In this document: piece after piece, positions 26,340 to 64,000 of the stretch
Layout of the letters: each line of letters starts with the position of its first letter
Position numbering within the stretch: position 1 is the first letter of the stretch
DNA from: Marinobacter sp. es.042
GTDB lineage: Bacteria; Pseudomonadota; Gammaproteobacteria; Pseudomonadales; Oleiphilaceae
NCBI RefSeq assembly: GCF_900188315.1
Contig: NZ_LT897781.1
Location: forward strand, 992,001-1,056,000
Direction: 5' to 3'
Length of the DNA stretch: 64,000 nucleotides
Position numbers and translations under genes: made by a program
Notes under the pieces: model-generated
Databases searched by the model: none
Seen by the model: only the letters and a program-made list of their open reading frames with translations
Told to the model about the DNA's origin: nothing

Positions 26340-26399
26340 CTCTGAGCCTGCTTGAGCTGCTAAATGGAAACCCATAAGGAACTTTGGAGAGTAATTACA

Positions 26400-27044: not shown

Positions 27045-27095
27045 AGCAGTCTTTGCTCAAGTTGCAATTTCGTTTTTGAACAACGGATATCCCAC

Positions 27096-28622: not shown

Positions 28623-29554
28623 TGACTGATTCCAAAGCAGATAATGACAGAAATGGGAAAACAGATAGCGGCGTACTTTCAGATTTTGAAAAGTGGAAAT
28701 CAGAAAAGCTGGGCAAAGAAGGTGATACCGCTTCTAAGTCAGGTTCGCAAACAGAAAGTAGCCAGTCAGAAATGGTTACCCGCGGCGAGGGCCGGATTAC
28801 GGAGTGGGATGATTCAAGAATGCTTGTGCCAAGTTCTCTTGAGCTCGGAGCAGGAAGCGTAGATAGGTATGTCATCAGCAAGCAGATAGCTCGAATGCAA
28901 GAGCCTCGTCGCCTGACATCAGATGACCTTGAAGAGAGAAGAATAGTTTATCCGGAATCTCCGAACCGCAAACTCGTCAATCATTTTCGAAACCTCCGCA
29001 CCAAGCTGCTTGAAAAATCCGGAGGCAACAATTTTACTTTGGTAGTTAGTGGAGCCTGCGAGGGCGCAGGCTCGTCCTTTGTTGCAATGAACTTGGCCGC
29101 CGCATTTGCATTCGATGAGGCCAAAACTGCATTGATCATAGATTGCAACCTCCGGGAGCCGGCGCTGCATTCCATGCTGGATATAATGCCTGACTCTGGC
29201 CTAACAGACTTTCTTGACGATGCGAATTACGACATTGGACGCATTCTTTATCCCACTGGAATACCTAGGCTAAGGCTGATACCGGCCGGCAGCCGGAGAG
29301 AAACGCCTAGCGAATTTTTCACATCGTTTCGCATGAAACAGTTTCTTCAAGCTGTTCGTCGCCGGTATCCGGATCGCTTTGTCGTTTTAGATACTGCACC
29401 AATAACTGAGTCCCCGGATGCGAGGATACTAACCGAACTCTGCGATTTTGCCATGCTCGTGATTCCTCATGCAGGAATGACCGCAGATGGCATTGAAAAC
29501 GCTGCGGGTGCCTTCAATTCTGAAAAGTTCGTTGGAGCTGTTATTAATGGCTAG
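28622..29554 (+). CDS. BY-kinase-like ATPase of exosortase-A locus with degenerate Walker A
   Basis: 310 residues. A ~110-residue polar N-terminal part precedes a CpsD/CapB-like P-loop domain. The Walker A region reads GACEGAGSS at residues 144-152, so the essential Lys (GKS/GKT) is Ser151 (codon TCG at 29072). The Walker A' strand TALIIDCNLREP keeps its Asp, and VVLDTAPITESPDAR resembles the Walker B region. The C-terminus has no Tyr cluster. Position and order match the tyrosine kinase of PEP-CTERM loci (TIGR03018 type), but ATP use and autophosphorylation are doubtful. Its end overlaps the next gene by 8 bases. Confidence 0.85.
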   Translation: MTDSKADNDRNGKTDSGVLSDFEKWKSEKLGKEGDTASKSGSQTESSQSEMVTRGEGRITEWDDSRMLVPSSLELGAGSVDRYVISKQIARMQEPRRLTSDDLEERRIVYPESPNRKLVNHFRNLRTKLLEKSGGNNFTLVVSGACEGAGSSFVAMNLAAAFAFDEAKTALIIDCNLREPALHSMLDIMPDSGLTDFLDDANYDIGRILYPTGIPRLRLIPAGSRRETPSEFFTSFRMKQFLQAVRRRYPDRFVVLDTAPITESPDARILTELCDFAMLVIPHAGMTADGIENAAGAFNSEKFVGAVING

Positions 29555-30833
29555 TTTTTGCTTGCCAGGAAAGCGCCTTTCCCTGCTCATTGTAGGATTC
29601 TTATGCTTTGATCTGCTGGCTAATTCTGCATCAGCTGCACCACTTACTCTATCAGGCGGGTTAATAAACAAACTCAGTGACAACACTGCGCAGTCATCAA
29701 GCAACGAAATAACCGATATTGAAACTCGGGCAAACCTGAGGGTATCGCACCTAAGCGATCCAGGCCGTTGCTCATCCGAGACTCTTGCAGATCTTGGCTA
29801 TGGAATTTGGCATGAAAAAACCTTCGATCCGGAGACCTATACCTCCCTGGACTTCCAGGGGGGTTGCGACTTAGGGCGTGGATTTAGTTGGGAGTTATCT
29901 GACAACCTACGAGATGTTGCTCTGGACTCCGGAGGCACAGATACACCAGACAATACAACACGGAAAAACGTATTCAGAACAGGGCCTTCTTACACTCTGT
30001 CATTTACCCAGATCGACCAACTCCAGCTATCGGCCAAATACGAAAACACCGAGTTTAGCGAACCGGAAGAGGCAGATAGCGAAAGATACGTTGCATCTGC
30101 AGCTTGGAATCACCTGTTCAGCCAATCGCTTTCTGCGGGGATCTCCCTTTCAACTAATCAGGCAGAGTTTGATACCGGTGCTGAAATTGACACCGATGTG
30201 GCCAGCGTGATCTTTTCGAAAACCTGGTCGACAACACGTATTGCTGGAAGCCTTGGGGTTAGCCAAATAGAGAGTGATTTCGGAGGGAGTAGCCAATCCA
30301 GCGACGGATGGGTAGGTAACATTGAGCTGGAGCGTGACATTAATCCAGTTACCCTCTTTTATTTGAACGCAAGTCGAGAGTTTACAGACCAAACCTCTGA
30401 TTTCGATATTCGATTTGGTGAATTTGTTTTTGACCTGCGAGAACTCAGCGAAGTCGAAGTAACGGCCATTGATACTGGTGTAAGAAGACGGTTCAAGGAC
30501 GCATCGCAACTTGAAATAAGCGTATTTGCCAATCGTGCTGATTACATTAGAGCAAACGAAACTGAAGATGGACTCGGTCTTTCAATCGGTTATCGCCGTC
30601 CGGTCATCCCATTGTTGACCTTTAATTCAACACTCAGATACCAATACGAAACGTTTGACGTGGACAACGTTGATCAGGAAACCGCGAGCCTGGACGCTGC
30701 GCTGACTTATGAACTAACTCGGGATCTCGGTATCACGGGCAGGATTGGCCATACCACCAGAACAAGTGATGCACCTACAAGCGAATATGAAGAGAACTGG
30801 ATATTGATAGGACTGGATTACCGTTTCTTCTGA
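29547..30833 (+). CDS. outer-membrane beta-barrel protein of exosortase-A exopolysaccharide locus
   Basis: About 428 residues from the ATG at 29547, whose codon lies inside the end of the kinase-like gene. A signal peptide ends near NSASAAPL. The remainder is an alternating amphipathic beta pattern with many aromatic turns, ending in the aromatic C-terminus LIGLDYRFF typical of outer-membrane barrels. Such proteins (TIGR03016 type) sit at this place in PEP-CTERM exopolysaccharide loci and probably help the polymer or sorted proteins cross the outer membrane. Sequence identity to the family cannot be measured here. Confidence 0.8.
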   Translation: MASFCLPGKRLSLLIVGFLCFDLLANSASAAPLTLSGGLINKLSDNTAQSSSNEITDIETRANLRVSHLSDPGRCSSETLADLGYGIWHEKTFDPETYTSLDFQGGCDLGRGFSWELSDNLRDVALDSGGTDTPDNTTRKNVFRTGPSYTLSFTQIDQLQLSAKYENTEFSEPEEADSERYVASAAWNHLFSQSLSAGISLSTNQAEFDTGAEIDTDVASVIFSKTWSTTRIAGSLGVSQIESDFGGSSQSSDGWVGNIELERDINPVTLFYLNASREFTDQTSDFDIRFGEFVFDLRELSEVEVTAIDTGVRRRFKDASQLEISVFANRADYIRANETEDGLGLSIGYRRPVIPLLTFNSTLRYQYETFDVDNVDQETASLDAALTYELTRDLGITGRIGHTTRTSDAPTSEYEENWILIGLDYRFF

Positions 30834-30855
30834 GCCACTGCATTCTTAAATATTG

Positions 30856-31743
30856 ATGTTCCATACCCGGAGTACCAAGGAAGTGAGACAAAACGCCCTG
30901 ACTATTGATGTAGAGGACTATTTTCAGGTCGCCGCGCTCGCTGAAGCCGTTGATCGTGATGATTGGCCCTCCATGGAATATCGAGTTGAAGCCAATACTG
31001 AACGGTTGCTGCAGTTGTTTGAAGATCGCAACGTAAGAGCAACTTTCTTCACCCTGGGCTGGGTGGCGGAGCGCTCACCGGAGCTTGTGAGGAAGATTCA
31101 GAAAGCAGGTCACGAGATCGCCAGTCACGGTTATAGCCACCAACTGGTCTATACACAAAGCCCTGAAGTGTTTCGTGAAGAAACGCGCAAGTCCAAACGT
31201 ATTCTGGAAGACATTACTGGTGCGCCTATCACGGGTTACAGGGCTGCGAGCTATTCCATTACTGCACAATCCCGCTGGGCGTTGGATATTCTGTGTGATG
31301 AAGGGTTTACCTGGGACTCTTCCATTTTTCCGGTTCATCACGATCGCTACGGCATGCCTGGCACCCCGCACGAGCCTTATCTTCTCAAAGCCCCTAACGG
31401 CCGGACCCTTACCGAGTTTCCTCTGTCTACCTGCCCCATCGGTAAGTATCGGCTGCCTGTTGCAGGCGGTGGTTATTTCCGCTTGTTCCCCTACTGGCTG
31501 AGCCACTGGGGGCTGGGCAGAATCAACAGAGCAGGGCAGCCCTTTATCTTTTACCTCCACCCCTGGGAAATTGATACAGGACAACCAAGACTGAAAGTCA
31601 AAGCATTCTCTCGCTTTCGGCATTACAACAACCTGGATAAATGTATGGGGAGGCTTGAGCGCCTGCTTACAGATTTCCGGTTTGGCTCCGTCTCTGATGT
31701 CTTGTCCGAGATGGATATTTCCACCAAAGCTGTTGCTGTCTGA
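30856..31743 (+). CDS. polysaccharide deacetylase, exosortase-A locus (DUF3473) type
   Basis: 295 residues from the ATG at 30856. The NodB homology domain starts at once: NALTIDVEDYFQVAAL holds the catalytic Asp pair, RATFFTLGWVAER follows, and the zinc motif is HEIASHGYSHQLVY (HxxxH). TGYRAASYSIT is the next motif. The C-terminal part FIFYLHPWEIDTGQP and FRHYNNLDKCMGRLERLL is the DUF3473 tail used by PEP-CTERM-associated deacetylases. It removes N- or O-acetyl groups from polymer sugars, probably in the periplasm or on lipid-linked units, although no signal peptide is seen. Its usual neighbour, a TIGR03015-type ATPase, is missing upstream. Confidence 0.9.
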   Translation: MFHTRSTKEVRQNALTIDVEDYFQVAALAEAVDRDDWPSMEYRVEANTERLLQLFEDRNVRATFFTLGWVAERSPELVRKIQKAGHEIASHGYSHQLVYTQSPEVFREETRKSKRILEDITGAPITGYRAASYSITAQSRWALDILCDEGFTWDSSIFPVHHDRYGMPGTPHEPYLLKAPNGRTLTEFPLSTCPIGKYRLPVAGGGYFRLFPYWLSHWGLGRINRAGQPFIFYLHPWEIDTGQPRLKVKAFSRFRHYNNLDKCMGRLERLLTDFRFGSVSDVLSEMDISTKAVAV

Positions 31744-31789
31744 GAATGTGCCAGTAGCTACTGTTTGAGAGCTTTCTAAGGATAGTTTG

Positions 31790-33103
31790 ATGGGAACGGA
31801 GTTGCCTATTGCCAACCTGGAGGCCTCCAAGGCCAGGCTGGAAGAGCTCAAGGCGACCAAAGGCCGATTAGGCAGGCTGGTGGGTGAGGCGCGCAAAAAC
31901 GGCGAGAATACCGAAGAACTGGTTAACGAAGTACAACGTGTTGCCGGGGAGATCAAACAGCTCCAAAAGCTGGTCAAAAAGCAGCTTAACCAGGGAGTGG
32001 CCCGGAAGAAGTGGGTTCCAGAGCCCGTTTCCATTCCACACGCCATCGCAAAACAGGCGCTATCCCAACCAGTAACTGTTGAACCAGTTTGCGCTCAGAA
32101 CCTGGACGCTGCTGAAGCCTATGTAGCCGGGAACCCTGGTGCGTCCATCTGGCACAGACCTCGTGTTTCTTCATTTATTGAGAAGACCTACGGCCACGAA
32201 ACCCGATTCCTCTGTGCTTGGGCGCGCGACGGCAGCATTGTTGGAGTTTTACCTCTCGTCCAACTGAAAAGTCGACTGTTCGGCAACTTTCTCGTTTCAA
32301 CGCCCTATTTCAATTATGGCGGTGTGCTGGCAGACAATCGCGAAATTGCAGACGAGCTCCTTACAAAAGCTGAGCAATGGCGCCAAGAGTTGCAGGCCGG
32401 GCACGTTGAACTGAGGTTCTGTCAGGACAATACACTGGGCCTCCCTCAGCGCACCGATAAAGTGACTTTCTGGTTGTCATTGCCTTCCGAAGCAGCCGAC
32501 TTATGGGACAGTTTCCAGCCGAAACTACGGGCTCAGATTCGCCGTGGTGAACGTGAAATGACCGAGTTTGCTATCGGCGGGGAGGAGCTACTCGACGAAT
32601 TCTATCGGGTTTTTTCTGTGAACATGCGTGACCTTGGGACACCAGTGTATGGTAAAGACTTTTTTCGAAATCTGTTGGAAACCCTGAAAGGTGAAGCCTG
32701 GCTTGCAGTGGTCAAGATTCAAGGAAAAGCCGTAGGCTGCGCCTTTTTAACCGGTTATCGGGGCAGAATGGAGATCCCCTGGGCATCAACACTGCGCAAC
32801 TACAATCACACCAGCATCAATATGATTATGTATTGGAAGATACTGGAGTTTGCCGTCCAGCAGGGATTCAGGGTGTTCGATTTTGGCCGTTGTAGCGAAG
32901 ATGCCGGGACTTATCGTTTCAAGCAGCAATGGGGTGCAGAACCCGTCAAGCTGTATTGGGATTACCTGCTGCCAGAGGGCAAAGCCCTGCCGAAACTCAG
33001 TCCCAAAAATCCAAAATTCCGGGTAATGATTGCTGTGTGGCAACGGATGCCTGTCTGGCTGGCCAATCTCATCGGGCCGCGCATTGTGAAGGTCTTGCCC
33101 TAA
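31790..33103 (+). CDS. FemAB-family acyltransferase, PEP-CTERM-locus type
   Basis: About 437 residues from the ATG at 31790, with AAGGA 7 bases upstream. The N-terminal ~75 residues are a charged coiled coil (ANLEASKARLEELKATKGRL). The C-terminal GNAT-like core has SIWHRPRVSSFIEKTYGH, DSFQPKLRAQIRRGEREM and VFDFGRCSEDAGTYRFKQQWGAEP, matching the FemAB proteins (TIGR03019 type) of exosortase loci. FemAB proteins transfer aminoacyl or acyl groups, but the donor here is unknown. Its stop overlaps the next start (TAATG), pairing it with a second GNAT protein. Confidence 0.88.
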   Translation: MGTELPIANLEASKARLEELKATKGRLGRLVGEARKNGENTEELVNEVQRVAGEIKQLQKLVKKQLNQGVARKKWVPEPVSIPHAIAKQALSQPVTVEPVCAQNLDAAEAYVAGNPGASIWHRPRVSSFIEKTYGHETRFLCAWARDGSIVGVLPLVQLKSRLFGNFLVSTPYFNYGGVLADNREIADELLTKAEQWRQELQAGHVELRFCQDNTLGLPQRTDKVTFWLSLPSEAADLWDSFQPKLRAQIRRGEREMTEFAIGGEELLDEFYRVFSVNMRDLGTPVYGKDFFRNLLETLKGEAWLAVVKIQGKAVGCAFLTGYRGRMEIPWASTLRNYNHTSINMIMYWKILEFAVQQGFRVFDFGRCSEDAGTYRFKQQWGAEPVKLYWDYLLPEGKALPKLSPKNPKFRVMIAVWQRMPVWLANLIGPRIVKVLP

Positions 33104-34089: not shown

Positions 34090-34090
34090 A

Positions 34091-38174: not shown

Positions 38175-38177
38175 ACT

Positions 38178-48015: not shown

Positions 48016-48033
48016 TCGAGGAAATGCCCGTTT

Positions 48034-49191
48034 ATGATAGGTAAACTCCGGCCGGTGGGAAGTCACGTACCTTTACCTCTAAAAAAAGAAGGAGGTTCGG
48101 TTCCACCATGGGAACTTCCATATCGGACCTATTTTATGGGGTCCGGTACAGAGGCGCTTTCTGCTGCTATTAAAATTGCGATCAGGCGGAAACCTCGAAT
48201 CCTCAAACCAGAAGTGGTTGTACCTGCTTACGGTTGTCCCGATCTGATTGCAGCAATTGTTGCACAGGGTGCCAAGCCGGTTCTGGTCGACCTGGAGCCA
48301 AATTCTTCTTTCATGAATGAAGATGGTATTCGGCAAGCGATTTCGTCGTCCACGGTTGCAGTGGTAGGCGTTGGGTTCCTTGGAATCACGGAACGACTCG
48401 AGCTACTCGCCCATATTTGCTGCGAAAATAGGTTGTTCCTCATTGAGGACTCTGCGCAGTGTTTTCCACCTGCAAGGAAGCATTCCTTGGCAGATTGTAT
48501 AGTGCTTAGCTTTGGTCGGGGAAAGCCTATCAACCTTATGGGCGGTGGCGCTTTGTTGGTGCGGAGGGCCATTGCAGAGGACGCGAACGCGACTCTTGGA
48601 AGTTACCCTTTGAAGTTATTAAAAGTGGATGCTGTGTGGCATATCCGGAGGGTGGTATTCAATCTACTTCTAGGCCGTATTTCATATGACCTACTGGAGC
48701 GCCTGCCACAACTGCGAATTGGAGAGACGAGATTCAATAGAATCGAGAAAATCGTTCGGCTCAAGGTCCCTGTCAGTCTTTTATTGAAGGGTATCCAGGA
48801 TTTTCGGTTGCGCCCGCGCATTCATTTGAAGTACGACCAGCAGTTGTCCGCGTTAGAAACAAAAGGTTGGGTAATGCTCTCTCGGAACCTCCACAAAGCT
48901 GATGGGGCTGCGGATAGTCAGGTTATGCTCCGATATCCTCTTCTTGCTCCTGACAGAGAAACAAGGAATAGAGCGATCCAAATGCTGAATTCACGCGGCA
49001 TCGGTGCTAGCAAATTTTATGAACGCCCCATTGCAGAGATTGAAGGTGTGGGAGAGTTTTTACCAAGAGGTCATTATCCGGTCGCCAAAGATATCTCGGA
49101 AAGATTGCTGACTTTGCCGACACATGAGGACGTCAAGCAACACCATATCGATTTGATCGATGAAATTCTCTCATCAATTTCCCAAAATTGA
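48034..49191 (+). CDS. DegT/DnrJ/EryC1-family aminotransferase
   Basis: 385 residues of the PLP-dependent sugar aminotransferase family. The MGSGTEALSAAIKIA segment binds the cofactor phosphate, VPAYGCPDLIAAIVAQGAKP is the family core, LIEDSAQCFPP carries the cofactor Asp, and LSFGRGKPINLMGGGALL carries the PLP Lys. The usual N-terminal residues before GSGTEAL are shorter than normal, and the C-terminal YERPIAEIEGV segment is kept. It should make an amino sugar for the polysaccharide, matching the several deacetylases. The start ATG has GAGGAA somewhat far upstream. Confidence 0.85.
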   Translation: MIGKLRPVGSHVPLPLKKEGGSVPPWELPYRTYFMGSGTEALSAAIKIAIRRKPRILKPEVVVPAYGCPDLIAAIVAQGAKPVLVDLEPNSSFMNEDGIRQAISSSTVAVVGVGFLGITERLELLAHICCENRLFLIEDSAQCFPPARKHSLADCIVLSFGRGKPINLMGGGALLVRRAIAEDANATLGSYPLKLLKVDAVWHIRRVVFNLLLGRISYDLLERLPQLRIGETRFNRIEKIVRLKVPVSLLLKGIQDFRLRPRIHLKYDQQLSALETKGWVMLSRNLHKADGAADSQVMLRYPLLAPDRETRNRAIQMLNSRGIGASKFYERPIAEIEGVGEFLPRGHYPVAKDISERLLTLPTHEDVKQHHIDLIDEILSSISQN

Positions 49192-49437
49192 TTCGCCACA
49201 GGCAACCAGGTTTCGATCTTCGAACAAAGAAAAACCTATAAAAGCAAACTATCAAAGGGCAGAATGTAAAGTTGGAGTTAAAAATTAGGTTGCGCAGGAC
49301 TCCATAGACTCTTGATACGATGGTCGAACTCAAGCGCGCTTGAACATTAAGTGCATCCCGATCCGTCTCGTCCAAGGACGCAACCATCGAAAAGAATCCA
49401 ATCGCGTCCTGCTGAATGGGCATCTAAAATTACAAAC

Positions 49438-53023: not shown

Positions 53024-53776
53024 TCAGACCTTGATATGGGTCAACGTAAAGATGTGTGAATTATCTATAGTGTACTGACCAATAACTTCGCGAAATCCAA
53101 CTTTTTCTGCAATTCGCAACGGCAGTAAAGCTGTAAAAAAACGATCGAGTTGATCAAACTGTAGGGCTACCTCGTGAAAATCGAAATATACACCTGCCAT
53201 TGGGAAAATGCATTTAAAAACACTTTCCTTGGCACTAAATATGAGAGTTTCTAAATGTTTAACACCATTAACGCAGTGGTTATTTTCGGCTTCTTCTGAG
53301 GATAGGATCAGCTCGGCTACGTCGATTGGTAACGGTTTATTTAGCTCTACATCAACGCCGATGCTTCGGTAATGTAGGTTAGAAGCCGCAACTGCAACGA
53401 TTAATGAGTCACAGTGGCTGATACTACCTGAAGTGCCATTCGGCCAGAGCGGTTCGCGATTTTTGCCAGGCGGAATAGGGCACGACGATATTCCCAATTC
53501 CATCAAAGCCTGTCTTGCAAGGTAGCGACCGGTTCGGAATTCAGATTTCCGCTTTTCGATGGCGTTTGAAATATAAGCTTCTTCAATCAGAAATATAGAG
53601 GGAGCCCTACGACATTCTGTAGTCGTCCGGATAATAACGTTGTTCGGCATCCGAGAAGTTAAATACTCATGAGGTTGCGGACTTTTTGTCATGTGACGTC
53701 TGGCTGATGATGTCAGTTTTTGGACCAATAACATGATTTTGCAGCAAAGTGGATTTAAAGAATCAAAAATCATCAT
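53024..53776 (-). CDS. 4'-phosphopantetheinyl transferase (Sfp type)
   Basis: Up to 250 residues; the start is uncertain, with in-frame ATGs at 53776, 53734 and 53692 and no clear ribosome site. Family motifs are present: RTGRYLARQAL, SISHCDSLIVAVAA, IGVDVELNKPL (Mg-binding Asp and Glu) and FSAKESVFKCIFP (KESxxK). It transfers the phosphopantetheine arm of CoA to carrier-domain Ser residues. It is last in the minus-strand unit led by the NRPS and should activate its two carrier domains. Linked PPTases are common in NRPS clusters. Confidence 0.87.
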   Translation of the reverse strand: MMIFDSLNPLCCKIMLLVQKLTSSARRHMTKSPQPHEYLTSRMPNNVIIRTTTECRRAPSIFLIEEAYISNAIEKRKSEFRTGRYLARQALMELGISSCPIPPGKNREPLWPNGTSGSISHCDSLIVAVAASNLHYRSIGVDVELNKPLPIDVAELILSSEEAENNHCVNGVKHLETLIFSAKESVFKCIFPMAGVYFDFHEVALQFDQLDRFFTALLPLRIAEKVGFREVIGQYTIDNSHIFTLTHIKV

Positions 53777-53836
53777 CGGTCTTGATGGAAAACTCTAAGC
53801 GATTGGTTGCAGTGCCTACTGCGATCAGAATATCTG

Positions 53837-54703
53837 TCAAATTGTTGCTCTCATCTTTAACCAAGAGCGCCATAAACCGGATTTGAATGAATCTCGAACT
53901 TCAGACCGACCAACTGGATGAGGCGCAATATTGAAGGGACTCATCAGTTTTCTGGCACGGTGATTAAAGTTCAGAGCTCTTCTTAGCATCATCGAGTTGC
54001 GTGTATTGAATATCACTGACATAGAGATCGAAATATCGTCAGGGCCGTTCTTGACGTGGTGCCCCGAGACAAATGGGATGTGCAGTGCCTCTCCTGGCCG
54101 GAAATCAAAACAGGTGAACAGACGTTCCTTTTCATTACTCCATTGTAAGTCAGTACTAGCATAAGACATGTAGGCCTCTCGGCTCGCGTCTGAAACTACT
54201 CTAGTGTCCCACGGTTCTGCCACAAAAACTTTTTTGGAACCCCTGAACTGGAACAGAAAGGTGGAGTATCGATCGATATGAAACGGCGTGATGCTATTTG
54301 GAGAGGCAATGAATAAGTACAAGGTTGGCATGAAAATCCTTCTTTTGGGGTCACGCTTGGCAACCAGCTCTTCAATGCTTTCCATGATTCTCTGGTAAAT
54401 CGGTTGAAAGACAGGGTCGACTTCTGGCGAATTGACCATTATCAGCGAATTCGATTGTTTGAGGTCTCTTAGCGTGCTCTCCAGAGATAAGTCTGTGTCG
54501 TTTTTCTTGAAAGCGGCCTCAAAATTATCCTGTGTACTCAGTCTAGAGTTTTTATAGAAAACCTGCTCCTTCGGCAGACGCAGGAGCGTTTCCTTCAAGG
54601 AGTCCAGGGTCAGTGCTTCGTTGTCCAGAAGGGTATGTTGCAGTTTAAACGGCGAGACATCCAGTTCCTGCTCATCAAGTTGGTCCAAAAAGACACCGGC
54701 CAT
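53837..54703 (-). CDS. cupin/JmjC-like Fe(II)/2-oxoglutarate oxygenase
   Basis: 288 residues. A double-stranded beta-helix has the iron-binding triad HxD in ITPFHIDRYSTFLFQFRG and the distal His in GEALHIPFVSGHHVKNG. KKVFVAEPWD lies between, as in cupin-8/JmjC-like hydroxylases. Such enzymes hydroxylate amino-acid side chains of proteins or of carrier-bound peptides. Between the acyltransferase and the PPTase genes on the NRPS strand, the natural reading is a tailoring oxygenase for the peptide (inference). No close functional homologue can be named from the sequence. Confidence 0.78.
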   Translation of the reverse strand: MAGVFLDQLDEQELDVSPFKLQHTLLDNEALTLDSLKETLLRLPKEQVFYKNSRLSTQDNFEAAFKKNDTDLSLESTLRDLKQSNSLIMVNSPEVDPVFQPIYQRIMESIEELVAKRDPKRRIFMPTLYLFIASPNSITPFHIDRYSTFLFQFRGSKKVFVAEPWDTRVVSDASREAYMSYASTDLQWSNEKERLFTCFDFRPGEALHIPFVSGHHVKNGPDDISISMSVIFNTRNSMMLRRALNFNHRARKLMSPFNIAPHPVGRSEVRDSFKSGLWRSWLKMRATI

Positions 54704-54758
54704 AGCTTTTTTCTCCTTGCTGTATGTTAACTATGATGGCATTTATCGCGACCGGAGT

Positions 54759-55910
54759 TCAGCCTTTTATACGAGAAATTGTCTGATCTCCCAGGGACGG
54801 TCGTAGGACCCGGGGCTTCAACAATTTGCGCATTGGCTCTTCTACGAATCGATAAGTCATAGCTGATAGTCCTATAACCACGACGAGCATCATTGTTATT
54901 ACGGCGAATTGAGCGAATAGGGGGAGGTCCTGATGGGCTGGCGTGCCAGTAAAGAATTGTGTCCCTTCTTTTAAAAGGTCTATTAGCAGCCAGTGTACAA
55001 GATAAATTGAGTATGAAATCTTTCCGAAATAGAGAAGCAGGGGATGGTTAAATACGTGGTGGCTTTCTTTCGGTAAACGAGATGCACACAGTACTAACCA
55101 GAAAAAGCTAACAACTGAAATCACGCCTGGGCCCGGGACGGCCAGTATAACGAGGTTTAGTATGAAAACAGGCAACAGATGTTTTGAGGATGCAAGGCGC
55201 GCGATGCTGCCCATCTGATACAAGCGGAAGGCTATGATGCCCAGAGTGGCCTCACAGAGGCACCTTACGAGCATTGGCCAACCAGCATAATAAAGCCCAA
55301 GGTCACCAAAATACGACTCAATGGCGACAAGGGGTATGAGGGCCAGAGCAGCGACGAAGAAATATGTTTGCTTCTGAAGGCGAAGCAATGGCTGCAACAG
55401 AAATGGTAGGAAAAAATACATAATCCACTCGGCACTGATAGACCAGGCCGGTTCATTCCAATAGGTGGCCCAGTGAAGAGTCTGTACCAATAGCAGGTTC
55501 GTGACCAAGGTTTCAACGCTTTGTTTGCCGGTAAATGGGGCAGCGAGGTTCTCCATTCCCGATGCATCGAAATAGCTGAGAAACCATTGCAGGCCTTCAA
55601 AGCCAACGAAGAGCAGAAGCATGAACAGGTGCAAAGGATAAATGCGGGCGAACCGGGATTGAATGAAATCGCGATATTGCGGGCCAGTTATTCTAATCCG
55701 GAAGGTGTCATGATAAATGTAGGCCAGCACAAAGCCGCTGAGCATAAAAAATAGGTCAACCCATAGGTACGACTTTTCAAACAGGCGAGTAGGAGTAATC
55801 GCTGCAACATCAGGCATGGCGACAAACATAAAGTGATGCCACACCACGAAGATGGCGGCAATACCTCGAAGGGAAGTAAGCGCGGTTAATTCCGGTTTGC
55901 GTGCATGCAT
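54759..55910 (-). CDS. acyltransferase 3 (OafA/YrhL family)
   Basis: 383 residues, with about ten membrane segments. The family start LTSLRGIAAIFVVWHHFMF holds the conserved R and catalytic-type His, and LWVDLFFMLSGFVLAYIYHD, RFARIYPLHLFMLLL and WSISAEWIMYFFLPFLL follow. These enzymes O-acylate sugars or lipids at the membrane. It sits between the exosortase-associated hydrolase 1 gene (5 bases upstream) and the cupin gene. It may acylate the exopolysaccharide or the peptide product. Confidence 0.9.
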   Translation of the reverse strand: MHARKPELTALTSLRGIAAIFVVWHHFMFVAMPDVAAITPTRLFEKSYLWVDLFFMLSGFVLAYIYHDTFRIRITGPQYRDFIQSRFARIYPLHLFMLLLFVGFEGLQWFLSYFDASGMENLAAPFTGKQSVETLVTNLLLVQTLHWATYWNEPAWSISAEWIMYFFLPFLLQPLLRLQKQTYFFVAALALIPLVAIESYFGDLGLYYAGWPMLVRCLCEATLGIIAFRLYQMGSIARLASSKHLLPVFILNLVILAVPGPGVISVVSFFWLVLCASRLPKESHHVFNHPLLLYFGKISYSIYLVHWLLIDLLKEGTQFFTGTPAHQDLPLFAQFAVITMMLVVVIGLSAMTYRFVEEPMRKLLKPRVLRPSLGDQTISRIKG

Positions 55911-55915
55911 AGACT

Positions 55916-56803
55916 TTATCTGTGGGCGACCTCATCCTGTTTAGTTATGGGATCTGGAGGTTGCCTCATCAGATCCTTAACCCAATTTGTGATGGACTCG
56001 ACGACGGCATTTCTGTCCTCGGGTTCTGAGAGGATGTGAGTCGCATAGGGTTTGTGGAGCACGGTCAGGTTGTCGCCGAAGGTGACGGGTTTGAAACAGT
56101 CCTCAAATTGCTTCTCGTAGACATAATAATCATTGCCAAAGAAAACATAGAGCATGTCCAGCCCTCGGCGATTCAGTGTCTGAAGGCCTTGTTTGACTTC
56201 GTCCCGAGGGGGGTAGTTCGCAAAGTTTGGCACTTCCAGAAAACGTTCATCAATACCGGAAACCTCAACTCCCTTTTTTACTTTTCTTAGTCCCAGCTTT
56301 CGCAATACAAAATTGGCCCAGCGGGAGAGGGATAGCAGTTTCGGACCATAGTGCAGGACGTAACTCTTCCATGTCATGTAACAGTATCCGTCGAGTTGTA
56401 CGGTGCCAATTACCCTTTGATCACTGAGTGCTGTCCGGTAAGAAGCGAAGGCTCCGGAACACAGTCCATACAGAATAAAGCGCTCAAACTGTTTCGTTTG
56501 ACCAAGATAGTCCATGACTTCCTGTACTTCTTCGACCGCTGCTTGGGCAGCAGTCAAGTTACCGCGACGTGCTTCGCTGTCGCCGATTCCGGAAAAATCG
56601 AATCGAAAGGTTGAAACACCTGCCTTGGTGGAAAGCGCTCGAGCTAACGTAACCGATAGGCGGCACGAACCTACGCGATGGATTACGCCGGAGTTCAGCA
56701 GGATAACTGCGGTTCCTGGGTGTGCTCTCTGAGCCGGATCGGGCTCAGAGAGCACACCAACCAAAGGCAGGTGGTCACCGATCATTACAGCCTGTTCGCG
56801 CAT
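55916..56803 (-). CDS. alpha/beta hydrolase, exosortase-A-system-associated type 1
   Basis: 295 residues from the ATG at 56803 (MREQAVMIGDHLPLVG), with AAGGAG 5 bases upstream; a longer frame to 56851 overlaps the upstream gene. The alpha/beta-hydrolase core has ILLNSGVIHRVGSCRLSVTLARAL, FRFDFSGIGDSE and the nucleophile elbow YGLCSGAFAS (Ser within GLCSGA). The combination VIHRVGSCRL and GLCSGA is the pattern of the hydrolase 1 family linked to exosortase A (TIGR03100 type). With hydrolase 2 it may release or edit the product of the upstream NRPS, which lacks a thioesterase. Confidence 0.85.
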   Translation of the reverse strand: MREQAVMIGDHLPLVGVLSEPDPAQRAHPGTAVILLNSGVIHRVGSCRLSVTLARALSTKAGVSTFRFDFSGIGDSEARRGNLTAAQAAVEEVQEVMDYLGQTKQFERFILYGLCSGAFASYRTALSDQRVIGTVQLDGYCYMTWKSYVLHYGPKLLSLSRWANFVLRKLGLRKVKKGVEVSGIDERFLEVPNFANYPPRDEVKQGLQTLNRRGLDMLYVFFGNDYYVYEKQFEDCFKPVTFGDNLTVLHKPYATHILSEPEDRNAVVESITNWVKDLMRQPPDPITKQDEVAHR

Positions 56804-56816
56804 GCTTGCTCCTTGT

Positions 56817-57605
56817 TTACCGTAGCATCGGTTTGCTGAAATAGTGCTCAATGGCGTCTATAACGGGCTTGGGCCAGAGGATACCGCCAACATGATCCAC
56901 GTAATTCCAGTCGTGAGGAGCCGGCGCCAGCTTGTAGTAGAAGTCTTCTTGTTGGGATAACTGCTCCTTCAGCGCTGCAAAAGAAGCTGACTCGTGGGAA
57001 ACAATCTGTGCGATGGAGCCAGGTATTGAGGGAATGATTTCATTTAGGCGCCAGTCTGAAAGGGTTTCCTGAAAGGCGGGCGGCATCGCAAAACCGTTGA
57101 AGTGCAGGGAGCCATCGGCCTCCAGAATACGAGATCGGCTACCCTGACTTTGGGCCAGGAGGATGTCGGATCTGATGCTTGCAACGTATTCTGCCCCATC
57201 CGTTATTGGGTCCCAGAAGACGAGCCGGGAAACCTGTTTATGTTGGCTTGCCGCCTTGGCTGCAACCAAGGCACCCAAGCGCAGACCCACCAGAGTGACT
57301 TTGGGTACGACGGCCATATCCATGACTTCCTGAATAGCGTGACCGACATCTTCTACCCAGTTGTCGGCGGTGACTCCGTTAAGGTCTCCTGCTGAATCTC
57401 CAGTACCGCGGTAATCGAACCGTAGCACCGGGTATCCAAGATTTGCCAGGTTTAGTGCGAGCCGCCGCATTGATTTATGAGCTCTCAGGTATTCCTGGCC
57501 GAATGGGTTGCATAGAACGATAGCCTCATTTCGATTTGCGTTGCATCGGGGGTGAAACAACCCGAACAGATAACTTTCAGACGGACCAAAGTAAAACGCT
57601 TCCAA
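56817..57605 (-). CDS. alpha/beta hydrolase, exosortase-A-system-associated type 2
   Basis: 262 residues. CNPFGQEYLRAHKSMRRLALNLA, VLRFDYRGTGDSAGD and VTLVGLRLGALVAAKAA identify the hydrolase 2 family of exosortase A loci (TIGR03101 type). The usual Ser nucleophile is replaced: the elbow reads GLRLGA, so classical esterase activity is doubtful. DHVGGILWPKPVIDAI near the end may hold the His-bearing loop. It lies 80 bases after the NRPS stop and 13 bases before hydrolase 1, so the three are probably one operon. Confidence 0.85.
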   Translation of the reverse strand: MEAFYFGPSESYLFGLFHPRCNANRNEAIVLCNPFGQEYLRAHKSMRRLALNLANLGYPVLRFDYRGTGDSAGDLNGVTADNWVEDVGHAIQEVMDMAVVPKVTLVGLRLGALVAAKAASQHKQVSRLVFWDPITDGAEYVASIRSDILLAQSQGSRSRILEADGSLHFNGFAMPPAFQETLSDWRLNEIIPSIPGSIAQIVSHESASFAALKEQLSQQEDFYYKLAPAPHDWNYVDHVGGILWPKPVIDAIEHYFSKPMLR

Positions 57606-57685
57606 TAGTCACTCCTAGATACTACCGTTCTGCCTGACCGATACGGGCCTTTGTTTTTTTCTGCCCCTGAACTTTAGTGATGTCA

Positions 57686-60600
57686 TCACTCGGGTCCAAA
57701 CAGCCTTCTGAAGACATTCTTTCTGTGTTTTTTAGGTTTTGTATTTGACTCGGCCCTGGGCTCTTCGGTGTTCGATGCCGGAAGCTTTTGCTCTACCAGC
57801 TTGGCCAGTTGCTCGAGGGTGTTCACCCAAAGATCCTGGGGCATCAGTTTAGCGCCGGTCATATGCTCAATATCCACGATGACCTTAAGAGCGAGCAGGG
57901 AATGGCCGCCGACCTCCAGAAACTGATCATCCAATGCTATTTCGTCAATTTGGAGTACTGTTTTCCAGATTGAGATCAATTGCCCTTCCGTTTTCGTTGG
58001 TTCCCGATTCTCAGCTTTTTTGGTGGCAGGGCCGCTCTTGGTCTGCATCAAAAGCTTTCGATTGACCTTACCTGAGGGCAGCAACGGCAAATGATCGTGG
58101 GCCGTGAATAATTGGGGCATCATATAGTCAGGCAGGGAGTGTCTGAGGTGCTTGCGTAACTCGCTGCTTGTCGGCTTCTCGTCCCTTGAATAGACAATAT
58201 GAGCGATGAGTCGCTGGTCATCTGCCTCAAAAGTTTGTACAACCACGGCTGCGTCTGCGATGGCTGGGTGTACCCGAAGCTTGATCTCAATTTCTTCCAG
58301 CTCGATGCGGTACCCGCGAACCTTGACCTGGTTATCGATACGGTCGCCGAACTCAATTTGGCCGTCCCATGTCCAGCGCGCTAAATCACCCGTGCGGTAG
58401 AGGTGCTGGCCATTGGAAAACCGTATGAACCGCTCGGCGGTCTGCTCCGGGTTGCCTCGGTAACCATTGGCCAGACCGGCCCCACTAATGCATAGTTCGC
58501 CATAAACACCCAGCGGCATTGTGTTGCCCTGTTCATCCAAGACATGCAACTGTGTATTGGCAAGAGGCCTACCAATCAGTATGCGCGGCAATGCCCCTTC
58601 ACCCCTGCCGGGAGGGATGCGGTAACAGCTGGTCCAGACGGTGGCTTCGGTCGGGCCGTACATATTCCAGAGTTCGACGCCTCTCTGGACCAGTAGATTG
58701 GCAAGATCGGCCGGCAATTTCTCGCCCCCTATAAGCCCCTTCAGGGGCTCCTGGATTGTAAGGTCCACGTTCATCAATAACCGCCAGGTGGCCGGCGTCG
58801 CCTGCAGGGTCGTAATCCCATGCTGCTCAATCAACGACTTGAGCTGATAAGGGTCACTACTCTGGTTTGTCGTCGCGATGACCACTGTCGCGCCCACACT
58901 GAGCGGCAGAAATAGTTCCAGCAGTGAGATGTCGAAGGCCAGGGTGGTGATGGCCAGTAATTGGTCTTTCTCACCAAGGCCGGGCTTCTCAGCAACTGCC
59001 ATAAGAAAGTTGTGTAGTGCGCCATGACTGATTTCAACGCCCTTGGGAACGCCGGTGGAGCCAGAAGTGAATATGACATAGGCCAGTTGTTCGCTCTGTA
59101 ATGCGAACGTGACGGGGCTTTCATCATATTCGTGACTCGCCTGAGTTTCGGCATCCAATAACAGGGTTTTCGTATCCTGTACGAGGTTCGTCGTAACCAG
59201 GTTGGAACAAGTTACGAGTAAACGGGCTTGTGCTACTTCCAGGATCAACCGGATACGTTCGTCGGGATAACTCGCATCCAGCGGCACATAAGCGGCCCCT
59301 AATTTCCAGATTGCTATGATAGCGGCTGGCATATCGACATTGCGTTCCAGCAGAAGGGCCACTACGTCACCCTGCTGAACCCCTCTTGAGGCGAAGAATC
59401 TCGCCAACTGGTTAGACCGCTGGTCAAGTTCTTGGAAACTGAAGGCGTTCTCCCCTGAGCGGCAGCTTACTTTATCGGGGTGCGCTGTAACTTGTTGCTC
59501 AAAAGCTGACAAGAATCCCTCACCAAAAGCCCATTCGCGCGCGGTGTTGTTCCAGTCAGATATCCTGCTTTTCTCGTCCTCGCTGGCGCAAACCAGCCGC
59601 TGGAGGTTAATCTCGTCCTGTTCCTCTGAAAGCACCTTGATACTATCCTTAAAGCTCTCTACGAATCCTTCGATCGTGGCCTGCCGGAATAGCTCAATGG
59701 GATATTCAAAGCCTGCCTCAATGCCCTCCCGTTGTCGCTTGAACCAGACGTCGAGGTCCGTTTCTACTCCAGTCCGATCGAGGTTTATCTGGGATCTTTG
59801 AATACCCTCCATCTGATCTTGCCGGTTTCTGACGTCCTGATAGTTGAAGAGCGTCTGGGCTATGGGATTCCTTGCTGAATCGCGCGGTGGGTTGATGGTT
59901 CGTACAAGTGTTTCAAAGGGTACATCCTGGTGGTCGATTGCAGTGAGTACTGTTTCTTTGACGTGTTGAACGAGTTCGTCAAACGATTGATCTTGCGAGA
60001 TCCGGAAGCGGCATACCAGTAAGTTTATGAACGGTCCGACCAGGCCACTTAACTCATCCTCGTTTCGCGCGTAGACAGGCACATTGATGATCAGGTCTGA
60101 TTGTCGACTAAAGCGGTGTAGCATCAAGACGTACAATGACATCAGCACCAGAAAGAGAGTGGTTTGATGACGTACCGCCAGGGTTTCAAGCGTTTTTGTG
60201 GTTGCCTCATCGATTTCAAACTTGATCCCTTTGGAGCGGTGCGGCTGAACATGAGGCCGGTCAAAATCAAGAGGCAAACTCAGGATTGGTAAATCCCCGG
60301 CTAACTTCTGTTTCCAGTAGTTCAGTTGTGCCTCCAACGCCTCGCTTTGCAGCCACTCCTGTTGCCAGATTGCGAAATCTTGAAACTGCACGGGCAGGTC
60401 GGCTAGGGGGTTCTCCAAACCTTTGGTGTAGGCATTGTATAGGGCACACATTTCCTTTAGCAGCAGGTCAAATGACCAGCCATCGAACACCAAGTGATGG
60501 ATCAGTAGGAACAGGACATGATCTTGTTCAGACACTTGAATTAATTTCGCTTTGAATAACGGGCCTGACTCGATGTTGAAGCTTGTTGAAACTTCGGTCA

Positions 60601-63600
60601 TTAGAGCTCTCTCAAGAGAGGCTATGTCAGAAATACCGAATTCTGATATCGGTTTTGGGGTCAATTGGATCGACTGTGAATCATCAACGAGGATCTGCAC
60701 CTGACCGTCGATATTTCTGAACTGGGCGCGCAGGATTTCGTGTCGTTGTAATACAGTGTTTATGGCCTGTTCCAATGCAGAAATGTCCAGAGAGCCTTGG
60801 AAGCGGAAAACCGCAGGTAAATTGAAGGCAAATGACTCGGGAACAATCTTTTCATAAAGGAACCATACCTGCTGCTGCGGCGTGGCGTGGACCACCGAGT
60901 CCTTCGGTCTGGCTTGAATACGATGTGTGCGTTGGCCATGTTGGAGTTCTTGCTCAATCAAGCGAGCCATCGCATGAATAGTCGGTGCTTCAAAGAGCTT
61001 TCCCAGCCCCAGTACGATACCGTATTGGCTCTTTATGCGGGCCAACATCTGGGTTCCGAGAAGTGAATGCCCCCCCAGATCAAAAAAGTTGGCATGAGTG
61101 CTTATGCTTGGCAGACCGAGGATGTTGCACCAAAGATCAGAAAGCTCCGACTCCAGGGGAGATTCTGGCTCCACATGGTCTGCACCGGATGAGATTGTTA
61201 GATCCGGCGCAGGAAGGGCTTTCCGGTCTACCTTGCCGCTTGAAGTCAGTGGCAGGGCCGGTAATTGAAGAAAATGCTGTGGCAGCATGTAGTCAGGCAG
61301 GTTTTGGCCGATATGTGCTTTCAGCGCCAGTAACTCTCCTTCCAATTCGAAACCAGCAACAATATAGGCAACGAGACGCTGGTCATTCACCCGGTCTTCC
61401 CTGGCCAAGACAGCACACTGGGTAATGCCCGGGTAGCGCAGGATGATGGATTCAATTTCCCCCAGCTCAATACGGAGCCCCCTGAGCTTGACCTGGAAAT
61501 CGTTCCTGCCGATGTATTCGAGCACACCATCCGTGCGCATCTTGACTAGGTCCCCAGTGTGGTAGGCTTTAAACGATTCGCTTGAAAAGGGGTCTTCAAC
61601 AAATCGTTCAGCCGTTAGCTCTGGGCGAGCAATATAGCCTCGGGCGACCTGAACCCCGCCGATCAGCAGCTCGCCTGCAAGTCCTGGGGAGAGCAGATTG
61701 CCTTGGCTATCCACAACGTAAAGCCTTGTATTGGGCAGCGCCTTGCCGATGGGAACAGTAAAGTCGACTTGCTCCTGACCGCAAAGCCAACTGCTGGCAT
61801 GAACGGCTGCCTCGGTCGGGCCATAGAGGTTCCAGCATTCGGCGTCGGGAAATGCATTCGTGAATCGGGCTTCCAGCTCGGTACTTACTGCTTCACCGGT
61901 CAGGAGAAAGCGCCGGATGCTGGGGCAATCTTCTTGGTGGCAAACATCAAGGAAGAGGTAGGCCAGGGACGGAACAAAATGGATTTGCGTGATCTGGTGT
62001 TGCTGAATGAGCTCGGCCAGATAAAGCGGGTCTTTATGTCCACCCGGCCGGGCGATGACAAGTCGGCTTCCGGTCATCAATGGCAAGAAGAGTTCGCAAA
62101 GGGAGACATCAAAAGTATAGGGAGTTTTCAGCACGACGGAATCGGCTTGATCAAGCGGAAACGTTTCTTTCATCCATAGCATGTGGTTGCATATGGATTG
62201 GTGCTCCAACATGACTCCTTTGGGTTTCCCAGTAGAGCCCGAGGTATACATTACATATGCAAGCTGATCTGGTGAGCAGGGCAGATTGGGCCGCGTTTTA
62301 CTGAACTGGCTCAAATCGAAAGCATTGCTGTCAATGGCTACGGCTTCGACGTTCCCCGGTACCCGATCTTTCAGAGCCGTCTGGGTCAGGACAAATTTAG
62401 CTTTCACCTCGTCAATAATGAAAGCCAACCGATCGTGCGGGTGGTCAGGATCCAATGGCAGGTATGCGCCGCCGGCTTTCAGAACCCCGTTGATTGCCAC
62501 CAGCATTGTCAGGGACCGGTCCATTAGAATAGGTACTATGGTTTCAGCCTTTACTCCCTGTGCATTCAACCAGTGCGCCAGGCTGTTAGCCTGTTCGTCC
62601 AGCTCCCTATAGCTCAGCTCTTTTCCTTCATAGATCAGTGCGCACCGATCGGGAAATTGATCTACCGCTACTTCGATCAGCCCATGAAGGCTTTTTCTTG
62701 TTAGGTCATAGGGGCGGCAGACGGATTCCCACTGCGCCTGGTAGAGGGCCAGATCAGCGCTTCGTAAAATGTTTAGTTGACCTAGTTCTGATTCCGGCTT
62801 GGTACTGACGCCTCGTAGCAGCAACAACAACTCGTCCAGTCTACGGTCAATCGTTTCTGTATTCCAAAGGTGAAGGTTGTGTGTGCATTCCATCACTGCC
62901 GATTGACTAGAGATGGTGATGTTCAGGTTAAGATCGAAATTCTCGGATACTCTCGGGTTGGACTCGAAGCTCGCATCCAATCCGGTAAATTGAAAATCAG
63001 ATTCATTGGTAAGGTCTACGTTGAACAGGATCGAGACCAATGGTGGCTTGGATGGGTCACGAGATACGCCAAGTGTCTGCAACAAAGTGCCATAGGTTAG
63101 ATATTGGTGCTCGAAGGCATCCAGCATGCACTGTTGTGTTCTATGCAGCAGGGCCCTGAAGGAGTCCTCTCCTGACACTTTGATATGTAGCGGAATGATG
63201 TTGACGCAGTGTCCGACGAGATTATGTTCTTCCTTGGCCATTTGACCGGCGAAGGGAATACCGAGGACGATATCCTCACAGCCGGAAATGCGGTGAATGT
63301 AGCCCGCAAATGCAGCCATCAGTGTTGTGGTAATGGTGCTATTGTTCTTTGCGGAAAGGGCTTTAAGTTCAGCAAGGAGGCTTAAAGGCAAATCTTTGTC
63401 CAGGCGAAAGGCCGAGAAACTGCGACTCAATAGTCGTGGCCTGTCGAACGGTAAATCTAGCGTTGGGATGCCGTCAGCGAACCGCCTTGTCCAGTAATCT
63501 ATGCTCTGCTCCCGTAATGAACGGGTTTCGTCACTGCGTTCCCATTCTGCGTAATCAATGAAGCTGGGCGCGGGTTCGAGTCCCGCTGATAATGAAGGCT

Positions 63601-64000
63601 CGCACTCACGCGAGTACAATTCACCCAGTTCACTGGCCAGGATGTATAGCGACCACCCATCACAAACCGAGTGGTGCAATGTCAAAAGCACCCTGGTGTC
63701 GTCTTCGGTGAACCGAATTATGTCGAATTGGGCGAGTGGACCGTTGGCCAGGTCAAAAGGGACGGAGACAGCCCTTTGCGCGAGCAAAGTCAGCTGTTCC
63801 TCTTGGTTTTTAGGCGTCAGTGTTGAAATGTCGTGATGTGTGACAGGGGCGGGTCGATCATAGTAGATAACCATTTCCTTGCCATCATCACTAAAACACC
63901 CTCGAATGGCTTGGTGGCGCTGCCACAGCGCCTCGAGAGCTTTTTTAAGGGCCGGCTGATTGACCCGGCCCTTAAGTCTCAAAAACACCGACTCATTAAA
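57686..64000 (-). CDS. nonribosomal peptide synthetase, 5' end beyond window (C-A-T-C-A-T)
   Basis: The frame is open to the right edge, so the true start is outside; at least 2,100 residues are visible. Counting from the GTG codon at 63988: condensation domain 1 (HHSVCDG at 105-111), adenylation 1 (YTSGSTGKPKG at 581-591), carrier 1 (FFDLGGHSLLG, Ser975), condensation 2 (HHLVFDG at 1164-1170), adenylation 2, and carrier 2 (FLEVGGHSLLA, near 2040). There is no thioesterase or reductase; it ends in a basic tail (KPKKHRKNVFRRL). The A2 specificity code reads DILQIGMVW, close to the known glycine code. The A1 code DVCHLGLVH shares positions with both serine and threonine codes. Hydrolases, oxygenase, acyltransferase and PPTase follow. 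Confidence 0.93.
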   Translation of the reverse strand, partial: FNESVFLRLKGRVNQPALKKALEALWQRHQAIRGCFSDDGKEMVIYYDRPAPVTHHDISTLTPKNQEEQLTLLAQRAVSVPFDLANGPLAQFDIIRFTEDDTRVLLTLHHSVCDGWSLYILASELGELYSRECEPSLSAGLEPAPSFIDYAEWERSDETRSLREQSIDYWTRRFADGIPTLDLPFDRPRLLSRSFSAFRLDKDLPLSLLAELKALSAKNNSTITTTLMAAFAGYIHRISGCEDIVLGIPFAGQMAKEEHNLVGHCVNIIPLHIKVSGEDSFRALLHRTQQCMLDAFEHQYLTYGTLLQTLGVSRDPSKPPLVSILFNVDLTNESDFQFTGLDASFESNPRVSENFDLNLNITISSQSAVMECTHNLHLWNTETIDRRLDELLLLLRGVSTKPESELGQLNILRSADLALYQAQWESVCRPYDLTRKSLHGLIEVAVDQFPDRCALIYEGKELSYRELDEQANSLAHWLNAQGVKAETIVPILMDRSLTMLVAINGVLKAGGAYLPLDPDHPHDRLAFIIDEVKAKFVLTQTALKDRVPGNVEAVAIDSNAFDLSQFSKTRPNLPCSPDQLAYVMYTSGSTGKPKGVMLEHQSICNHMLWMKETFPLDQADSVVLKTPYTFDVSLCELFLPLMTGSRLVIARPGGHKDPLYLAELIQQHQITQIHFVPSLAYLFLDVCHQEDCPSIRRFLLTGEAVSTELEARFTNAFPDAECWNLYGPTEAAVHASSWLCGQEQVDFTVPIGKALPNTRLYVVDSQGNLLSPGLAGELLIGGVQVARGYIARPELTAERFVEDPFSSESFKAYHTGDLVKMRTDGVLEYIGRNDFQVKLRGLRIELGEIESIILRYPGITQCAVLAREDRVNDQRLVAYIVAGFELEGELLALKAHIGQNLPDYMLPQHFLQLPALPLTSSGKVDRKALPAPDLTISSGADHVEPESPLESELSDLWCNILGLPSISTHANFFDLGGHSLLGTQMLARIKSQYGIVLGLGKLFEAPTIHAMARLIEQELQHGQRTHRIQARPKDSVVHATPQQQVWFLYEKIVPESFAFNLPAVFRFQGSLDISALEQAINTVLQRHEILRAQFRNIDGQVQILVDDSQSIQLTPKPISEFGISDIASLERALMTEVSTSFNIESGPLFKAKLIQVSEQDHVLFLLIHHLVFDGWSFDLLLKEMCALYNAYTKGLENPLADLPVQFQDFAIWQQEWLQSEALEAQLNYWKQKLAGDLPILSLPLDFDRPHVQPHRSKGIKFEIDEATTKTLETLAVRHQTTLFLVLMSLYVLMLHRFSRQSDLIINVPVYARNEDELSGLVGPFINLLVCRFRISQDQSFDELVQHVKETVLTAIDHQDVPFETLVRTINPPRDSARNPIAQTLFNYQDVRNRQDQMEGIQRSQINLDRTGVETDLDVWFKRQREGIEAGFEYPIELFRQATIEGFVESFKDSIKVLSEEQDEINLQRLVCASEDEKSRISDWNNTAREWAFGEGFLSAFEQQVTAHPDKVSCRSGENAFSFQELDQRSNQLARFFASRGVQQGDVVALLLERNVDMPAAIIAIWKLGAAYVPLDASYPDERIRLILEVAQARLLVTCSNLVTTNLVQDTKTLLLDAETQASHEYDESPVTFALQSEQLAYVIFTSGSTGVPKGVEISHGALHNFLMAVAEKPGLGEKDQLLAITTLAFDISLLELFLPLSVGATVVIATTNQSSDPYQLKSLIEQHGITTLQATPATWRLLMNVDLTIQEPLKGLIGGEKLPADLANLLVQRGVELWNMYGPTEATVWTSCYRIPPGRGEGALPRILIGRPLANTQLHVLDEQGNTMPLGVYGELCISGAGLANGYRGNPEQTAERFIRFSNGQHLYRTGDLARWTWDGQIEFGDRIDNQVKVRGYRIELEEIEIKLRVHPAIADAAVVVQTFEADDQRLIAHIVYSRDEKPTSSELRKHLRHSLPDYMMPQLFTAHDHLPLLPSGKVNRKLLMQTKSGPATKKAENREPTKTEGQLISIWKTVLQIDEIALDDQFLEVGGHSLLALKVIVDIEHMTGAKLMPQDLWVNTLEQLAKLVEQKLPASNTEEPRAESNTKPKKHRKNVFRRLFGPE

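Follow-up and report, generated by a model that had tools for sequence, protein, structure and literature searches.

A multi-module NRPS of Marinobacter sp. es.042 was found to be one part of a PKS-NRPS hybrid assembly line with an aminotransferase module (a PKS-AMT protein plus the NRPS), linked to an exopolysaccharide (EPS) locus of the XrtA type. The earlier note had described the NRPS beside genes for two hydrolases, an acyltransferase, a cupin protein, and a PPTase; this observation was confirmed and is larger than described. Its interpretation, a peptide or lipopeptide made together with the EPS and the PEP-CTERM system, was partly supported: the assembly line belongs to the EPS locus, a lipopeptide is not supported, and the PEP-CTERM link is only local. 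I tentatively prefer the reading that the cassette serves the EPS locus as a functional module and that its product is put on the polysaccharide. A free metabolite is a close second.

The cassette and its EPS locus

The window, the whole stretch of 64,000 nucleotides that was analysed, covers bases 992001-1056000 of a 3.94-Mb Marinobacter chromosome. As had been noted, the cassette genes lie tightly spaced on one strand: six ORFs occupy 53024-64000 on the minus strand with intergenic gaps of 60, 55, 5, 13, and 80 bp. The features are as follows, in window coordinates.

24927..33103, plus strand: XrtA-type EPS core (EpsB, export protein, chain length, tyrosine kinase, BBP2 porin, deacetylase, FemAB)
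45720-46856, minus strand: PgaB-like deacetylase
46834-48015, plus strand: GT2 glycosyltransferase
48034..49191, plus strand: DegT-type aminotransferase, the first conserved EPS gene past the cassette slot in related loci
49438-51273: ABC transporter near the cassette, varying between loci
53024..53776, minus strand: 4'-phosphopantetheinyl transferase, PPTase (Pfam)
53837..54703, minus strand: Cupin_8 (JmjC-like) protein, possible hydroxylase (PF13621, 34.9 bits, cut-off 27.4)
54759..55910, minus strand: acyltransferase 3 family membrane protein (Pfam PF01757, Acyl_transf_3, 98 bits)
55916..56803, minus strand: Hydr1, TIGR03100-like, Cys nucleophile with His and Asp (TIGR03100 profile, alignment, predicted structure)
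56817..57605, minus strand: Hydr2, TIGR03101-like, Arg109 at the nucleophile position (TIGR03101 profile, alignment, predicted structure)
57686..64138 (window edge 64000), minus strand: NRPS, C-A-T-C-A-T, no thioesterase (Pfam: 2 C, 2 A, 2 T)
64142-70675, outside the window, 3 bp upstream of the NRPS: PKS-AMT protein, 2177 aa, A-T-KS-AT-T-AMT
Between the PKS-AMT gene and XrtA, outside the window: divergent trio of cupin, GNAT, and formyltransferase
74972-76684, outside the window: XrtA (TIGR03109, 223.8 bits, cut-off 208)

The NRPS start had rightly been placed outside the window; extension of the contig puts it at 64138, 138 bases beyond the edge. For Hydr1, the ATG at 56803 is favoured, and the longest ORF reaches 56851. 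The locus is an XrtA/PEP-CTERM EPS locus, as had been supposed from the window. In its core, EpsB, the export protein, the chain length protein, the deacetylase, and FemAB (five families) score above XrtA-specific cut-offs, and the tyrosine kinase scores slightly under its own (204.6 vs 230.65). XrtA is followed by PrsR and PrsK (TIGR02915, 665 bits; TIGR02916, 669 bits). A PrsT-like TPR protein lies between XrtA and PrsR/PrsK (143.7 bits, below the cut-off of 312), and the protein adjoining PrsK has a C-terminal PEP-CTERM tail by eye. The glycosyltransferase set of 34000-52427 differs among relatives. An Rfam search of the whole window gave no match.

Linkage in the genus Marinobacter

I surveyed 124 Marinobacter genomes, with the NRPS searched at 1e-100 and PKS-AMT at 1e-70. 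XrtA was matched in 112 genomes, and above the cut-off in 30. The NRPS was matched in 27, of which 22 have it linked to XrtA, three (G103, G107, G110) have it on short contigs, and two have it elsewhere. In all 22 genomes with both genes on one contig, the NRPS lies 1.1-25.9 kb from XrtA, and all 22 fall within the 30 with XrtA above the cut-off. The PKS-AMT search matched 20 genomes, namely 18 carriers, G004 (a KS-AT match), and G127, where the match is the NRPS. Of the carriers, 13 are close, namely that of the window and 12 others with 69-76% identity, and five are at 38-42%. PKS-AMT lies 1.1-5.6 kb from XrtA in 15 of the 18 carriers; the other three are the short-contig genomes (6.7-19.4 kb). 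Outside the linkage counts stand G003 and G012, whose matches are other NRPSs (31-37% identity) on contigs other than that of XrtA, the G003 assembly being in about 440 pieces; likewise G004 and the short contigs of G103, G107, G110, and, in the order, G424 and G208. G094, with XrtA above the cut-off on a 14-kb contig, was left unclassed.

The short distance in 22 genomes indicates that the neighbourhood is more than chance. A mobile NRPS island that happened to enter an EPS hot spot would explain the patchy presence of the cassette, the fall in G+C content from 57.8% at the window start (1-20000) to 45.8% in the EPS part (34000-52427) and 50.2% in 53024-64000, and the two transposase-like ORFs seen by eye in one relative's locus (G126). 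However, besides the linkage within the genus, the arrangement recurs in other families, and catalytic motifs are retained at about 70% identity. Such a chance neighbourhood is thus most improbable and was largely refuted by the genus survey, in which orthologous cassettes away from EPS genes were not seen.

Three designs in two slots

The cassettes fall into three designs. Type 1, found in the window and 10 further contiguous loci, lies between XrtA and DegT. Type 2 (G131, G126, G083, G040) lies in the same slot, with an NRPS of C-A-T-C (domains from G131). Type 3 (G066, G116, G056, G090, G062) lies immediately after FemAB on the same strand, inside the EPS core operon, in all five loci; its NRPS reads A-T-C-A-T-TE and thus has its own TE (domains from G090 alone). 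G021 and G127 have a type 1 NRPS without PKS-AMT. In seven loci (G007, G057, G130, G114, G024, G052, G015), the XrtA-to-DegT slot holds no NRPS, and no NRPS match was found genome-wide at 1e-100; G114 and G052 were also covered through the EPS core. All 11 type 1 loci that have PKS-AMT carry the trio of cupin, GNAT, and formyltransferase, as do three of the four type 2 loci, G126 being the exception. The trio was not seen in the type 3 loci, the seven NRPS-free loci, G021, or G127.

A locus tree was built from GT2, DegT, and XrtA by a quick method (28 rows, some forks weak, G116 missing). On this tree, NRPS presence takes two changes, type 3 (four rows) forms one clade, and type 2 takes three changes among type 1, the two types being intermixed. 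This pattern suggests that different cassettes replace each other at one place, and I read the cassettes as interchangeable there.

Other genes also vary around the slot. In G021 (L076, 10467-11879) and G127, both lacking PKS-AMT, an ATP-grasp-like protein stands between the PPTase and the NRPS; that of L076 has 25% identity to the product of window positions 35219-36397 and no Pfam match. In the type 2 locus of G131 (L047, 6672-9389), a secreted-looking S15 peptidase-like and a methyltransferase-like ORF follow the hydrolases (by eye; no Pfam match). A lipoprotein-like ORF near DegT (L047, 11654-13636), with TSP3, PA14, and fn3 domains in G131, has similar counterparts in G016, G083, G129, G136, G007, G057, and G130, and is thus found with and without an NRPS.

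The assembly line

The full NRPS of the earlier note is indeed multi-module, but it has to be corrected to a PKS-NRPS hybrid. Its C, A, T, KS, and AT domains are present with intact catalytic motifs; the pattern for the KS Cys motif failed on G000, though the G000 sequence reads SACSTS. A C-terminal TE is absent from the window's NRPS by Pfam. The class III aminotransferase of PKS-AMT matches that of mycosubtilin synthase subunit A (3.3e-111). As in the iturin/mycosubtilin PKS-NRPS (MycA), a KS, a carrier, and a class-III AMT making a beta-amino unit are combined. Unlike those systems, the present one has an amino-acid-like loading code, an in-cis AT, a predicted short product, no TE, and a place in an EPS locus. 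The PKS-AMT gene of G097 is broken up into two reading frames, with an overlap of about 10 bases.

The first C domain (C1) has an intact HHxxxDG motif in 11/11 type 1 NRPSs with PKS-AMT, while the motif is altered, by different residues, in both NRPSs without it. This fits the use of the PKS-AMT product by C1. The second (terminal) C domain of the type 2 NRPS reads HQxxxDG in 4/4.

The A-domain codes were taken as nine positions by motif, and their substrate readings are predictions from recall. The loading domain has DVQFIAQVV in type 1 and DALWLGGTF in type 2, which I take to be Pro-like and Val-like, respectively. The second A domain has DVCH(L/I/V)(T/A)LVH, presumably Ser-like with no firm assignment, and the last has DILQLGMVW, presumably Gly-like. 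Outside Marinobacter, the predicted Val- or Pro-like code for loading and the Gly-like code in the NRPS recur in several relatives, and others differ. With general Pfam models, a separate part for loading a lipid was not seen, and the code of the loading domain is amino-acid-like; a lipopeptide product is therefore not supported.

The hydrolase pair

Hydr1 and Hydr2 had been called exosortase-A-type hydrolases 1 and 2. Judged by their profiles they are relatives of these families, beneath the curated cut-offs: Hydr1 scores 84.6 bits against TIGR03100 (cut-off 168.45) and Hydr2 110.7 bits against TIGR03101 (cut-off 202.75). Their predicted structures are esterase-like alpha/beta hydrolases (pLDDT 82 for Hydr1 and 89 for Hydr2). 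Aligned with its relatives, Hydr1 shows a Cys nucleophile in 36/36, His in 35/36, and Asp (28) or Asn (8) at the acid position. Hydr2 has Arg at the nucleophile position in 54/54; seven of the 61 rows of the Hydr2 table were excluded, since they have Cys and map to the Hydr1 place, five of them occurring in the Hydr1 table as well.

The earlier note had tied the pair to exosortase-A loci. This was corrected: in Marinobacter the pair tracks the TE-less NRPSs (19/124 genomes) and not XrtA (112/124). Hydr2 scores 69-113 bits in these 19 genomes and adjoins the NRPS in each; the next best match has 41 bits and lies elsewhere. In the type 3 genomes, no Hydr2 match above 25 bits was found. Since the type 3 NRPS has a TE, I infer that, in lines that lack a TE, release or transfer is the task of the hydrolase pair.

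The cluster outside Marinobacter

A wider genome scan gave a list of the best 80 loci, 79 of them outside Marinobacter. Among these 79, at least 11 have the gene order PKS, NRPS, Hydr2, Hydr1, including loci of Variovorax, Xylophilus, Aquabacterium, Lysobacter, Luteimonas, Dokdonella, and Pseudoxanthomonas; L127 has this order with no aminotransferase match. Among the best 80, exosortase and EpsB were looked for in 25 and TIGR03101 in 15, which were selected by cluster content and not at random. An exosortase match is absent from 16 of the 25 genomes, and EpsB is above the cut-off in 12. In seven of these 12 (L096, L112, L123, L125, L127, L145, L146), EpsB is part of the cluster or adjoins it, the hydrolase pair being about 18 kb further along in L096 and L146. 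In the other five, EpsB is unlinked, on short contigs, or of unsettled linkage. None of the seven genomes with the cluster beside EpsB gave an exosortase match, two of the seven being MAGs that may be incomplete. The earlier note had named NRPS clusters lacking exosortase genes as evidence against the link; such clusters were not encountered in Marinobacter, but outside it these seven genomes have the cluster with no exosortase match. This suggests that the tie is to the polysaccharide and that the PEP-CTERM link is local. More distant clusters of PKS-AMT and NRPS with similar domain order occur in cyanobacteria (L095, L098, L104) and Bacteroidota (L097, L099, L116, L120), some with cupin or AcylT3 relatives.

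These seven genomes also bear on the idea that the product modifies PEP-CTERM proteins or works with the exosortase. XrtA, PrsR, PrsK, and a PEP-CTERM protein are indeed neighbours of the cassette, but 90 of the 112 XrtA-bearing Marinobacter genomes have no linked NRPS, and the seven clusters stand beside EpsB with no exosortase match. I consider this role very unlikely, and the exosortase was set aside as a necessary partner, although in Aquabacterium (G142) the contig that bears Hydr2 also carries an exosortase about 33 kb away.

In an order survey of 293 genomes, a strong Hydr2 (146 bits or more) was found in 14 non-Marinobacter genomes, of which 12 were testable and two have contigs that end too early. 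PKS/NRPS genes lie beside it in 10 of the 12, on the other strand in G394 and in one of the two G168 loci. G176, with EpsB beside the pair, and G393 have no nearby NRPS/PKS. In G295, from another family, a PKS-NRPS cassette stands inside an XrtA-type locus that also contains EpsB, Wza, FemAB, and a homologue of XrtA (29% identity). G316, also from another family of the order, has two Hydr2-Hydr1 pairs and two PKS/NRPS clusters next to each other, adjoining PrsR/PrsK homologues (L260, L236, L255).

The classical exosortase-A set consists of an acyl-CoA ligase (TIGR03098), a PLP decarboxylase (TIGR03099), and hydrolases TIGR03100 and TIGR03101. The company of the hydrolases and a ligase, stated in the earlier note, found support elsewhere in the order: 10 of the 15 genomes with a weaker Hydr2 were examined, and eight have a match to one adenylation domain within a few kb. 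These classical-like loci have the same Cys in Hydr1 and Arg in Hydr2, and both systems place a Hydr2-Hydr1 pair in EPS loci. In contrast to the classical set, a multi-module PKS-NRPS replaces one ligase here, and the hydrolases are under the family cut-offs.

A possible modification of the polysaccharide

For the preferred reading, I infer the substrates, the order of the chemistry, the transfer step, and the acceptor as follows. The PPTase would activate the carrier domains. The PKS-AMT protein would load one amino acid (Pro-like code), and one malonyl extension with beta-keto amination would yield a beta,gamma-diamino acyl chain. The NRPS may append one residue (Ser-like code) and then glycine. 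As this NRPS has no thioesterase, the carrier-bound chain would be passed to the Cys nucleophile of Hydr1, with Hydr2 as a putative non-catalytic partner. The acceptor to which Hydr1 would transfer the chain is most probably a free amino group on the polysaccharide, which the deacetylases of the locus may expose or DegT may make. The cupin, GNAT, formyltransferase, and acyltransferase may tailor the product.

Several results argue for a module of the EPS locus: a distance of 1.1-25.9 kb separates the NRPS and XrtA in 22 of the 27 Marinobacter genomes with an NRPS match; three designs occupy two slots of one locus, and types 1 and 2 intermix on the tree; Hydr2 adjoins the NRPS in each of 19 genomes, and type 3, with its own TE, has no Hydr2 above 25 bits; C1 integrity follows PKS-AMT presence (11/11 vs 2/2); Cys and Arg are invariant in Hydr1 and Hydr2; the cluster adjoins EpsB where no exosortase was found; and deacetylases occur in the locus. 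On the other hand, the seven XrtA loci of the same kind without an NRPS indicate that the polymer does not need it. The HQxxxDG motif of the type 2 terminal C domain (4/4) and the two of 12 testable order loci without a nearby NRPS (G176, G393) also count against the reading, and Hydr1 might merely hydrolyse.

Instead, the product may be a small molecule that stays free of the polymer and acts as a matrix signal, an antibiotic, or an inhibitor; it would be made with EPS expression and released by Hydr1 or by the TE. I regard this as possible. Assembly lines that are complete and keep their motifs typically point to secreted metabolites, and type 3 has a TE. However, the surroundings of the cassette showed no recognisable gene dedicated to resistance or export, the ABC transporter at 49438-51273 varying between loci; the cassettes are swapped within the EPS locus; and one design is located inside the EPS core operon. 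Decoration of the polymer remains the preferred reading.

In the accessible text of the literature (including PMC8233155, PMC4897644, PMC6602434, PMC11800396, and PMC8776678), which largely leaves out subscription journals, no description of an NRPS in an exosortase/EpsB locus was found. PMC1569441 mentions neither a hydrolase nor a ligase. N-acyl amino acid synthases have been linked to PEP-CTERM/exosortase (Craig 2011, as cited in a passage of PMC4897644), and going by that passage they resemble the present system in tying a small acylated amino acid product, here a predicted one, to exosortase loci. The present system differs in its thiotemplate assembly line. The N-acyl amino acid synthase is reportedly a single acyltransferase.

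More speculatively, and with some doubt, the cassette may represent a new polysaccharide modification, in which a diamino-acyl peptide that a PKS-NRPS builds on a carrier is moved to the amino sugars of an exported polymer by a two-subunit transferase consisting of a Cys hydrolase and an Arg pseudo-hydrolase. The classical hydrolase 1/2 set would then be a one-adenylation version of this system, and Marinobacter may diversify its polymer via cassette swaps. If true, thiotemplate peptide synthesis would be tied to extracellular polymer production, the exosortase-A hydrolase 1/2 pair, made up of a Cys enzyme and its Arg pseudo-enzyme, would gain a testable role, and among the orphan NRPS clusters near EpsB some would count as matrix genes and not as antibiotic clusters.
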